Assembly: GCF_000347635.1 (NCBI RefSeq)
Contig: NC_020514.1
Span: forward strand, 1,674,001 to 1,738,000
Length of the DNA stretch: 64,000 nt
From: Paraglaciecola psychrophila 170
GTDB lineage: Bacteria; Pseudomonadota; Gammaproteobacteria; Enterobacterales; Alteromonadaceae
Direction of reading: 5' to 3'
A program made the translations under genes and the position numbers. The notes beneath the pieces were generated by a model that ran no database searches, was not told the origin of the DNA, and saw only the letters and a program-made list of their open reading frames with translations. Shown one piece after another: positions 24,300 to 27,308 of this stretch. The first letter of the stretch is position 1. Every line of letters begins with the position of its first letter.

Positions 24300-24650
<351 letters not shown>

Positions 24651-24852
24651 TAGTCGCCCCCTGTTAATAAAATACAGCGCCTAGTTTTGATAAGCTTTAC
24701 AGTTGTATAGTCGAGTGGATCATCGAGAAAGTATTTGTTCTTGAAAATATCTGAAATAATAATTAGTGCGTCTAGGTCTTCTGGATTGAAACTAGACAAC
24801 TACATTTAATAATCGTTTTTTGATTGACTAATAATTTCCAAGGAAACTTAAT

Positions 24853-25335
24853 ATGCAAAAAATTAAAAAAACAGCTATCGCTACTGCACTGGGTGCAGTT
24901 GTTATCGGCTCTCTTGCTTCTATCAGTGTCCAAGCCAACACTAACCCGTTTAGCGTTCATTCTTTAGAATCTGGCTACATGCAAAGTGTCACAGAAGGCA
25001 AATGCGGTGGAGATAAAGCCGAAAAAGCAGCCAAAACCATGAAAGAAGGCAAATGTGGTGAAGGTAAGTGCGGCGGAGATAAAACCGAAAAAGCAGCCAA
25101 AACCATGAAAGAAGGCAAATGTGGTGAAGGTAAATGCGGTGGTGATAAAGTCGAAAAAGCAGCCAAAACCATGAAAGAAGGTAAATGCGGCGGTGATAAA
25201 GCTGAAAAAGCAGCCAAAGCCATGAAAGAAGGCAAATGTGGCGAAGGTAAATGCGGCGGTGATAAGGTCGAAAAAGCATCTAAAGTCATGAAGGAAGGCA
25301 AATGTGGTGAAGGTAAATGCGGCGGCCAAGCTTAA
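24853..25335 (+). CDS. Bufferin/HvfA-type RiPP precursor with ten EGKCG motifs
   Basis: 160 residues. A signal peptide (residues 1-28, ending SVQA) is followed by NPFSVHSLESGYMQSVT and then repeats carrying exactly ten Cys, every one in EGKCG. Repeat units are 22 residues (EGKCGEGKCGGDK-EKAAK-MK) or a 17-residue version with one Cys. This is the layout of HvfA/bufferin precursors, whose EGKCG cysteines are oxidised by a DUF692 iron enzyme into copper-binding heterocycles. Such an enzyme and its DUF2063 partner follow directly. AAGGAA precedes the ATG. The mature peptide is expected in the periplasm; modification of this one is inferred. Confidence 0.87.
   Translation: MQKIKKTAIATALGAVVIGSLASISVQANTNPFSVHSLESGYMQSVTEGKCGGDKAEKAAKTMKEGKCGEGKCGGDKTEKAAKTMKEGKCGEGKCGGDKVEKAAKTMKEGKCGGDKAEKAAKAMKEGKCGEGKCGGDKVEKASKVMKEGKCGEGKCGGQA
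24994..25329 (+). repeat. Tandem repeats inside the RiPP precursor gene
   Basis: Coding repeats of 66 bp (22 codons) with some 51-bp versions lacking one EGKCG. Copies are very similar at the DNA level, suggesting expansion and contraction by slippage or recombination. Number of Cys sites may therefore vary between strains. Confidence 0.85.
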
Positions 25336-25354
25336 TAAGTAACCAAGACTTTCT

Positions 25355-25388
25355 AAAATAAAGGCCGGCTAATGTCGGCCTTTATTTT
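25355..25388 (+). terminator. Terminator/attenuator between precursor and enzyme genes
   Basis: AAAATAAAGGCCG (25355-25367) pairs perfectly with CGGCCTTTATTTT (25376-25388), loop of 8. It lies 19 bases after the precursor stop and about 25 bases before the MNIO gene, so it likely gives abundant precursor mRNA and limited readthrough into the enzyme genes. Confidence 0.82.
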
Positions 25389-25414
25389 AGAAAAAGTGCA
25401 GGGTGACCAATCTA

Positions 25415-26275
25415 ATGATGAATAAACATCTTTCAGGAGTGGGCTTAGGTCTTCGCCGAGAAATGCTCGACCAGCTATTACCTGACATCCCCAGCTCGGT
25501 TGATTTTTGGGAAGTAGCCCCCGAAAATTGGATACCCCTTGGCGGAAAATATCAGAAACACCTTAACCAATTTACCTCTGCCTGTAATTTTGTCAGCCAT
25601 GGCTTGTCTTTGTCGATCGGTAGCCCTGATCCTCTTGATATCAAACTTTGTAAAAACGTCAAAACGTTTTTAGATAGACATAATATTTTATATTACAGTG
25701 AGCATTTAAGTTATTGTTCTGGTCAGGGTCATCTATATGATCTTATGCCGATCCCCTTTACTGAAGAAGCAGTCAAACATGTAGTCGAGCGGGTTAAACA
25801 AGTGCAAGATATTATCGAGCGGCCATTGCTGTTAGAAAATGTATCTTATTATGCCGCACCTGGACAAGAGATGACCGAACAAGAATTCACATTATCGGTG
25901 CTTAACGACTCAGGTTGTTTGATGTTGTTAGACGTGAATAATATTTATGTTAATTCTATTAATCACGGTTACGATGCCGAGGGCTTTTTGGCTGCGATGC
26001 CCACGGGTAAAATTGTCTATGGTCACATTGCAGGACATTATGACGAAGCTGAAGACTTAAAAATTGATACTCACGGTGCCGATGTCATCGAACCGGTTTG
26101 GCGATTACTTCAAAAAGCTTATGAAATTCACGGGGTTTTTCCGACGTTATTAGAAAGAGACTTTAATATACCGCCAATCACAGAATTGTTAGTGGAAATG
26201 GAAAGAATAAGAACTATTCAACTGCGTGTACAGCAGCAAGTGTCTCCCCCGCATCTTAAAAAAATTAAAGCTTAA
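25415..26275 (+). CDS. MNIO (DUF692) peptide-modifying enzyme, BufB/HvfB-like
   Basis: 286 residues of the multinuclear non-haem iron oxidative enzyme family (DUF692, TIM barrel; MbnB is the founding member). It opens with GVGLGLRREMLDQLLPDIPS and the conserved WEVAPENW. Likely metal ligands sit in FVSHGLSLSIG, YYSEHLSYC, LLENVSYY, LLDVNNIYVN, HIAGHYD, DTHG and LERDFNIP. It should oxidise Cys residues of the upstream EGKCG precursor. I start at ATG 25415, nine bases after AGGGTG; ATG 25418 or GTG 25403 are alternatives. Its stop overlaps the next start (TAATG), coupling translation to the DUF2063 gene. Confidence 0.92.
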   Translation: MMNKHLSGVGLGLRREMLDQLLPDIPSSVDFWEVAPENWIPLGGKYQKHLNQFTSACNFVSHGLSLSIGSPDPLDIKLCKNVKTFLDRHNILYYSEHLSYCSGQGHLYDLMPIPFTEEAVKHVVERVKQVQDIIERPLLLENVSYYAAPGQEMTEQEFTLSVLNDSGCLMLLDVNNIYVNSINHGYDAEGFLAAMPTGKIVYGHIAGHYDEAEDLKIDTHGADVIEPVWRLLQKAYEIHGVFPTLLERDFNIPPITELLVEMERIRTIQLRVQQQVSPPHLKKIKA

Positions 26276-27021
26276 TGAAGCCTTTTCAAGTTATCCAGCA
26301 TGATTTTATTCAGCATATAAAAAATTCTGAGGCTAAACCGTTTGCTGGTGGTATCGAAGAAAGACGTTTAAAAATTTATCGAGAGTTGTTTTTTAACAAT
26401 ATTTTGGGCTTTCTAAGTTCTGGGTTCCCTGTATTGCAGAGTCTGTATGATGAACAACAATGGAAATTTTTGGCTCGAAACTTTTTTATTGAACATCAAT
26501 GTAATTCTCCTTATTTCATTGATATTAGTAAAGAATTTGTAGAATACTTAAGTAGCGAGTACCAACTCTGTGAGTCTGACCCTATATTTATGGGTGAATT
26601 AGCACATTACGAATGGTTGGAGTTGGATGTCAGTGTGCGTACGTCGAATCAAAGCGTTACTGCATGGGATGGACATTCACCGATAACCCAGGTTCAAATG
26701 TCTGACTTAGCAAGTTTAGTCAGTTACCAATATCCTGTTCACCAAATAAGTGTCGATTTTATTCCCTCGCAGGCTAGCGAAGTTGTGTATCTAGTGATTT
26801 ACCGGGATGCCTCCGATGAAGTGAACTTTACGTTGCTTAATGCGGTGTCTGCACATTTGCTAAACACTATTATGCAACAAGGAGTAGTAACAGTTGATTC
26901 GTTAAGTAAAATTATGATTGAATCCATGCCGCAATTAGACGTAAAGCAAATTACTGAATCGTTGCAACAAGTACTAAAACAGTTATTATTACAACAGATA
27001 TTATTCCCTACAGAGGAATAG
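26275..27021 (+). CDS. DUF2063 protein, putative MNIO partner (BufC/HvfC-like)
   Basis: 248 residues. The N-terminal half is the DUF2063 (putative DNA-binding by old name) helical domain: RLKIYRELFFNNILGFLSSG followed by FPVLQSLYDEQQWKFLARNF and SPYFIDISKEFVEYL. In characterised systems this partner binds the precursor leader and forms a complex with the DUF692 enzyme. The C-terminal half is a less conserved domain (VSVRTSNQS onward). Overlaps the MNIO gene by one base. Function by association, well supported by gene order. Confidence 0.88.
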   Translation: MKPFQVIQHDFIQHIKNSEAKPFAGGIEERRLKIYRELFFNNILGFLSSGFPVLQSLYDEQQWKFLARNFFIEHQCNSPYFIDISKEFVEYLSSEYQLCESDPIFMGELAHYEWLELDVSVRTSNQSVTAWDGHSPITQVQMSDLASLVSYQYPVHQISVDFIPSQASEVVYLVIYRDASDEVNFTLLNAVSAHLLNTIMQQGVVTVDSLSKIMIESMPQLDVKQITESLQQVLKQLLLQQILFPTEE

Positions 27022-27136: not shown

Positions 27137-27259
27137 ATGCAAGAAGATAACAGTTCACACGACCCGTTTAATTGGGGTTACCTGATTTCAGCCTTAGGTG
27201 TGCTGCTAGCGTTGCCATTAATGTTCGTCATAGTGGGTTGGTTCGTTTTTTACCTTTAA
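27137..27259 (+). CDS. Small single-pass membrane protein (40 residues)
   Basis: MQEDNSSHDPFNWGYLISAL followed by a strongly hydrophobic helix to the end (GVLLALPLMFVIVGWFVFYL). GGAG at 27126-27129 lies seven bases before the ATG, a good ribosome site, so this is probably a true gene. It lies between the RiPP biosynthesis genes and apt, with its own upstream palindrome. No known family recognised; a link to the RiPP locus is only positional. Confidence 0.6.
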   Translation: MQEDNSSHDPFNWGYLISALGVLLALPLMFVIVGWFVFYL

Positions 27260-27308
27260 CACCCGCAACAACTCTACTCATCTAATTTATTAAATTACGG
27301 GAAAATTC

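Follow-up and report, generated by a model that had tools for sequence, protein, structure and literature searches.

The window analysed here, a 64,000-nucleotide stretch of the Paraglaciecola psychrophila 170 genome (contig NC_020514.1, positions 1,674,001 to 1,738,000), holds a three-gene operon for a precursor peptide with repeated EGKCG motifs, a multinuclear non-haem iron oxidase (MNIO, DUF692) and a DUF2063 partner protein (Table 1). The family, described only recently, is presumed to convert the repeated cysteines of a small exported peptide into copper-binding rings; within it the locus and its repeat layout are ordinary, and what looks new is a stress-type promoter that the operon appears to have in common with genes for the repair of oxidised envelope proteins. 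We think it quite likely that this is an operon for an EGKCG thiooxazole metallophore ("captophorin") with a promoter of the extracytoplasmic function (ECF) sigma type, an enzyme supply limited by a hairpin, and a layout left by turnover of repeat units. We infer all function in the operon from sequence and published relatives.

Family assignment and published relatives

An earlier note on this DNA, made from the letters alone, had described a ten-cysteine EGKCG precursor, a DUF692 oxidase and a DUF2063 partner, and all three are present. The precursor has 160 residues and all ten cysteines lie inside EGKCG; its N-terminus (MQKIKKTAIATALGAVVIGSLASISVQA) resembles a Sec signal peptide by eye. 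In Pfam scans, PF05114 matched the MNIO (E = 4.2e-102, 341.3 bits), PF09836 and PF22106 matched the partner (4.4e-26 and 4.8e-22), and the precursor gave no match, DUF2282 included. Against NCBIfam profiles, the precursor scored 74.5 bits for NF050137 (KCGExKCG_twice; cut-off 19.5, E = 3.6e-21, five stretches), the MNIO 425.9 for the HvfB equivalog NF003818 (cut-off 360) and the partner 274.6 for the HvfC equivalog NF050145 (DUF2063/PME1; cut-off 142). The HvfA equivalog NF050188 was missed (60.9 against 95 bits), for which reason we do not file the precursor as a strict HvfA. The HvfABC part of the earlier assignment is thus borne out, and the name bufferin in its narrow sense does not apply, the MNIO falling below the cut-off of MNIO_BufB (NF050167, 256.8 against 310 bits) and the precursor being without DUF2282. 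On these profile scores we assign the operon firmly to the EGKCG "captophorin", or Buf_EGKCG/oxazolin, type.

The solved structure nearest to the MNIO in sequence was 3BWW (E = 1e-62), and the partner matched 3DEE (E = 2.2e-14). Motif residues H66, H101, E145, N179, H208, D222, H224 and E251 are kept relative to 3BWW, and we take some of these to bind metal. The MNIO is 88% identical to that of the nearest named locus, in Paraglaciecola sp. MB-3u-78. The host genome has a single PF05114 match, and the EGKCG profile matches this gene only. In a check of precursor and MNIO genes, the precursor lay upstream of the MNIO in 75 of 80 loci (the best of 563 MNIO-matching loci).

Publications on such peptides already describe repeat cassettes, a variable copy number and binding of copper (PMC12452194, PMC13097082, PMC12538549), and chemistry with copper binding has been published for fontiphorin, oxazolin, gonophorin and bulbicupramide. 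Residues N175, D242 and H244 of HvfB have been discussed together with its iron centre (PMC13419390). The Buf_EGKCG/oxazolin type 1 systems (PMC12452194) likewise have a signal-peptide precursor with variable two-EGKCG repeats and genes for an MNIO and a DUF2063 protein. Their repeat is 17 residues with two EGKCG, whereas the units here are of 22 (double) or 17 (single) residues because the spacer is 12 residues long; Antoine et al. 2025 (PMC12452194) gave a beta-helix model for 17-residue repeats and reported sigma-factor genes in Buf1 clusters. HvfABC(X) of nontypeable Haemophilus influenzae, an oxazolin system, shares the HvfB and HvfC equivalogs and an EGKCG precursor. It differs in that the precursor here is below the HvfA cut-off, with ten cysteines against six, no DoxX gene is recognised adjoining, and the ECF loci open to examination showed no short zinc-binding anti-sigma (ZAS) protein; ECF-type control is published there (RpoE2, PMC7907618) and proposed here. 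The fontiphorin system FonABC and the captophorins (PMC13097082) share an EGKCG precursor accompanied by MNIO and PME1 only, with seven modified sites in FonA against ten EGKCG here; Gadgil et al. 2026 described 5-thiooxazoles and copper binding for these products. The bulbicupramide system MmrABC of Microbulbifer (PMC12538549) has the same di-Cys cassettes, lysine-rich flanks and minimal A-B-C gene set in a marine gammaproteobacterium, with five to eight cysteines in its precursor rather than ten, and Tang et al. 2025 found four hydrogens lost per cysteine in its cassettes. The present locus is one more example in a class of more than 20,000 (PMC13097082).

A two-box element upstream of EGKCG precursor genes

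Alignment of 11 upstream regions revealed TGAAATA and GGTCT at a nearly fixed distance. The pattern TGAAA-N16-20-[CG]GTCT was found in 67 of the 93 regions upstream of a precursor, where 0.16 would be expected, with a spacing of 18 in 63 and 17 in four; counting distinct regions only, 58 of 83 have the element. The 54 distinct spacer cores had a mean pairwise identity of 0.32, so it is mostly the two boxes that are conserved. With a position weight matrix (PWM) built on the 54 distinct sites, the window left out, the site before the precursor scored 25.5 and was the sole site of at least 13 in the 64 kb. This conservation indicates that TGAAA-N18-GGTCT is probably an ECF-sigma-type promoter for the operon.

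The element upstream of envelope redox-repair genes

Elsewhere in the host genome, high PWM scores were found at genes for a redoxin (22.8), a DinB-like protein (22.1; the name is our reading, the protein having no Pfam match) and DsbD (18.3), as well as inside a long frame (18.0) and in a repeated insertion-element-like sequence (16.4). Two of these genes are supported by orthologous loci: a site of at least 16 lay within 250 nt upstream in 11 of 23 DinB-like loci (10 of 22 when the host genome is left out) and in 12 of 30 redoxin loci (11 of 29), and at none of the 338,904 other positions of these loci. A tightened pattern in 14 genomes gave 56 matches against 45 in a reversed control, which makes the bulk enrichment weak. 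We viewed 48 of the 56 in context, the remaining eight being hvf, window or DinB-like sites; 22 of the 48 scored at least 18, and 20 of these were outside long frames. The genes 3' of those 20 were five hvf precursors, four DinB-like, three redoxin-type and two CutA genes, and one each for an MsrP-like protein (PF00174, 26 against 24 bits on its first 150 residues), DsbC, a cupin-like protein, a membrane protein and an ECF sigma factor, with no clear gene at one site. Lower scores were seen at DsbD (13.0, 15.2) and MsrA (12.0) and at further DinB-like (13.3), redoxin (9.7) and CutA (6.2) genes. Pfam names were checked for one example of each gene type, and the others were named by likeness.

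A two-box element at fixed spacing is thus common to unlinked genes, as in a regulon, its promoter activity being putative. These contexts suggest that the element marks an envelope redox-repair regulon which includes the EGKCG operon. Among the papers listed by literature searches on DUF3379 with sigma, on both boxes and on the gene set, none was seen to describe such a regulon, nor did passages of PMC10141476 describe one with TGAAA-N18-GGTCT.

A plain copper-resistance set under a copper sensor of the CueR or CusR type, with the ECF-like boxes being something else or incidental, would be another reading of the operon; we consider it unlikely. CutA and DsbD, which are linked to copper tolerance, share the element. 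Peptides of the family bind Cu(I), and excess copper or gold is said to induce such operons (PMC13097082). However, what is conserved is a two-box promoter at fixed spacing in 67 of 93 regions and not a dyad. The best upstream match to a CueR dyad was 7 of 14, the background level of the window, and CueR-type control was set aside; this comparison was confined to CueR, with CusR/CopR boxes outside it.

A candidate sigma factor

ECF control of related operons has precedents. Induction of the H. influenzae hvf cluster by hypochlorous acid needs RpoE2, and SigE controls the homologous cluster of Neisseria (PMC7907618). In Caulobacter the ECF factor sigma-F controls bufferin operons with DUF2282 precursors and, in part, a gene for a YedY/MsrP-type enzyme; its promoter is GTAACC-N16-CGAA, compared to TGAAA-N18-GGTCT and EGKCG precursors here (PMC3511200).

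In the host genome, none of 20 PF08281 loci carried an element of at least 14. A short ZAS anti-sigma protein (H-x3-C-x2-C), the companion of ECF factors of the RpoE2/HrsE type, was not seen beside any ECF gene open to examination: 16 of the 20 PF08281 loci gave a row (one on the wrong strand), 12 neighbourhoods were read, loci found by PF04542 alone lay outside the check, and only a ChrR-like 223-residue neighbour matched. The ChrR-type ECF was rejected as the controller, as the element was within 300 nt upstream in none of 30 loci and nowhere else in them. An ECF factor with a DUF3379 neighbour (307.9 bits) was present in 53 of 59 genomes, and in one of them (G049) the element lay 49 nt upstream of the pair with a score of 24.0. 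From its gene position the DUF3379 protein looks like an anti-sigma factor; in this G049 locus (L258) the ECF gene overlaps the DUF3379-like gene (positions 169-1451, element at 1501, minus strand). The element was upstream of the pair in none of 30 other orthologous loci listed. Eight of these regions (L283, L291, L301-L303 and L305-L307) had sites near 1510 that scored 13.0-21.2 and start with CGAAA or GGAAA; they begin 3-16 nt into the aligned part of the ECF gene, in sequence that is also coding, and may be conserved coding sequence or an internal promoter.

In two genomes, G026 and G028, this ECF was not found at the cut-off of the search, and the element is missing before the precursor as well. 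Among 16 precursors from 18 regions, a site of at least 10 was present in ten and absent in six; of the six, G045 and G050 have the ECF, and G131 and G070 were outside the ECF search. This co-occurrence is suggestive only, as it is confounded by kinship and some of the genomes are probably in the PWM training set. The comparison across relatives covered the ChrR-type ECF and the ECF/DUF3379 pair, with L142, L145, L148 and L150 among the ECF loci outside it, and we regard the pair as a candidate only.

A hairpin between the precursor and MNIO genes

The MNIO frame opens with GTG, but translation more likely begins at the in-frame ATG at 25415, which is preceded by AGGGTGA. The gap to the precursor is thus 67-79 nt and holds a strong hairpin: RNA 25333-25420 folds at -34.9 kcal/mol compared to -13.9 for shuffles (z = -7.5). 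Under a strict terminator rule (a stem of at least 7 that is half GC and has five or more GC pairs, followed by seven positions of which five or more are T), a site is present in the window and in 34 of 73 relatives, against 0.05 expected from dinucleotide shuffles; the 73 are the 80 loci less five without a precursor and two with very short gaps. The stem sequences differ among many loci. None of the main texts of PMC12452194, PMC13097082 and PMC12538549, to which this search was confined, uses the word terminator, hairpin or stem-loop. Translational coupling, which the earlier note proposed along the operon, is plausible between the MNIO and DUF2063 genes because the stop of the one and the start of the other share a base (TAATG), but the precursor and MNIO genes are set apart by the hairpin-bearing gap.

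Layout of the repeat array

Runs of EGKCG follow the order 1-2-2-1-2-2 and are separated by five 12-residue spacers, GDKxEKAxKxMK. The 22- and 17-residue units named in the earlier note are present; the strict alternation of singles and doubles is not, and novelty of the layout is not supported. We examined 110 loci (L005-L114), of which 104 gave a precursor; besides the window, 95 were complete and 86 of these distinct, any xxKCG being counted. Doubles only were found in 41 of the 86, a mixture of singles and doubles in 35, runs of at least three in seven and singles only in three, and the spacers vary widely. In five of these precursors (L019, L022, L035, L036 and L038) the most frequent spacer length is 12 residues. 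The nearest relatives read 1122221 (L035), 222222 (L036) and 222222 (L038). Among 120 homologues listed of 4,944 passing, 30 fall into ten groups with an identical 30-residue leader, and nine of the ten groups hold more than one layout. The variation behind identical leaders is suggestive, as metagenome assembly errors in repeats and cut frames may contribute.

At the codon level, the first member of a double in the window reads GGC..TGT in four of four cases and the second GGT..TGC in four of four. Both singles have TGC, and with its GGC..TGC the single at 24994 looks as if a first and a second unit had been fused. With L035, L036 and L038 included, GGC.TGT was found in 14 of 20 first members, TGC in 14 of 20 second members and TGC in four of five singles, and the trend was not evident in farther relatives. 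The pattern fits loss or gain of 15-nt units, and we infer that the layout is a remnant of repeat-unit gain and loss rather than a dedicated code.

A functional layout, in which singles and lysine-rich spacers set the copper stoichiometry or leave some cysteines as thiols, extends the proposal of the earlier note and seems improbable to us. A minimal FonA peptide with two EGKCG was modified by FonBC and one with a single EGKCG was not (PMC13097082), which might make poor substrates of the singles at 24994 and 25177; in addition, the near relatives L035, L036 and L038 share the 12-residue spacer. Yet in a Microbulbifer cassette one cysteine was still modified when the other was replaced by alanine (PMC12538549), stochastic copper binding is suspected for EGKCG products from loading data (PMC13097082), and the codon signatures are consistent with doubles having lost one 15-nt unit. 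Since layouts vary between the nearest relatives and behind identical leaders, a layout code was set aside.

Contigs ended within 400 nt upstream of the MNIO start in seven of the 80 loci (L037, L041, L042, L050, L075, L081, L100), within 4 kb upstream in 22 and within 4 kb downstream in five. Draft contigs thus probably often break inside or just before the array, and array lengths from drafts are probably underestimated; as contigs tend to end there, precursors may be truncated in drafts.

Proposed function of the operon

By analogy with the characterised systems, the HvfC-like partner would present the precursor to the HvfB-like oxidase, which would remove four hydrogens per Lys-Cys to yield a 5-thiooxazole with a free thiol or thiolate, and the peptide would be exported by Sec and bind Cu(I) in the periplasm. 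Judging from conservation, transcription probably starts from TGAAA-N18-GGTCT, shared with the envelope redox-repair genes, and the hairpin probably stops many transcripts, such that substrate would exceed enzyme.

Several observations weigh against the captophorin reading as a whole. Besides the missed HvfA equivalog, no DoxX gene was recognised when the open reading frames of 19-33 kb were read, which was done without a DoxX profile search. The element is lacking in 26 of 93 precursor upstream regions, and a sigma70-like match at 24786, which may offer sigma70 control, fits 10 of 12 positions, promoter-like matches numbering 11 compared to 7.3 (standard deviation 3.0) expected. The pattern search in the host genome gave 23 places against 13 in the reversed control, which is not a clear enrichment; enrichment over the 14 genomes was weak as well, two of the 22 high-scoring sites viewed in context lie inside long frames, and 12 of 23 DinB-like and 18 of 30 redoxin loci are without the element. 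At the hairpin, 39 of 73 loci fail the strict rule, and a generic terminator scan found one site here, on the minus strand only, without excess (1 against 2.2 expected). In Microbulbifer, copper did not bring the mmr proteins to detection, and they gave only slight protection (PMC12538549).

A secreted, methanobactin-like chalkophore for copper acquisition is very improbable: the enzyme family is related, the rings would bear thiolates and the N-terminus is of Sec type, but the MNIO scores 47.1 against a cut-off of 325 bits for the MbnB equivalog TIGR04159, no protease, exporter or receptor gene was recognised adjoining on reading the open reading frames, and the promoter element points to a stress response.

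Returning to the captophorin operon, we tentatively propose, as a possibility somewhat short of even, that the EGKCG peptides of Alteromonadales belong to a dedicated ECF regulon (TGAAA-N18-GGTCT, perhaps under the DUF3379-paired sigma factor) rather than to a copper regulon. The regulon would repair oxidised envelope thiols and methionines (MsrP, MsrA, DsbC, DsbD, CutA, redoxins, the DinB-like protein), the peptide would sequester Cu(I) and spare thiols for as long as the repair goes on, the internal terminator would keep substrate in excess, and fast change of array length would tune capacity. The purpose of EGKCG peptides is left open in PMC13097082 and PMC12538549, and a promoter shared with thiol and methionine repair yields a proposal that is specific and can be tested. 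The failure of copper alone to raise the Microbulbifer proteins might also be explained in this way. The similar pairing under RpoE2 in Haemophilus and sigma-F in Caulobacter would, if true, make this wiring recurrent.

Coordinates and neighbouring genes

Table 1. Features of the operon and its upstream region, in window coordinates.
Feature	Position	Strand	Basis or remark
ECF-sigma-like promoter element (putative), TGAAATAATAATTAGTGCGTCTAGGTCT	24752..24779	+	73 nt 5' of precursor ATG; two-box conservation
sigma70-like match, TTGAAA-N16-AATAAT	24786-24813		rival to the ECF-like element
hvfA-like precursor, 160 aa, signal-peptide-like N-terminus, ten EGKCG	24853..25335	+	NF050137 above, NF050188 below cut-off
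EGKCG array, runs 1-2-2-1-2-2, 12-residue spacers	24994..25323	+	sequence and codon pattern
Terminator-like hairpin, 18-bp stem, in precursor/MNIO gap	25349..25394	.	fold and strict terminator rule
hvfB-like MNIO (DUF692)	25403..26275	+	PF05114, NF003818, 3BWW
hvfC-like partner (DUF2063 + NGO1945_C)	26275..27021	+	PF09836, PF22106, NF050145, 3DEE

Just 5' of the operon, a gene for a P-II nitrogen regulator (24312-24650, plus strand; PRK10858 above cut-off) was found, with no apparent link to the operon. A small frame of about 40 codons (27138-27260, plus strand), noted by eye, lies between the DUF2063 gene and apt and has one hydrophobic stretch (MQEDNSSHDPFNWGYLISALG...).

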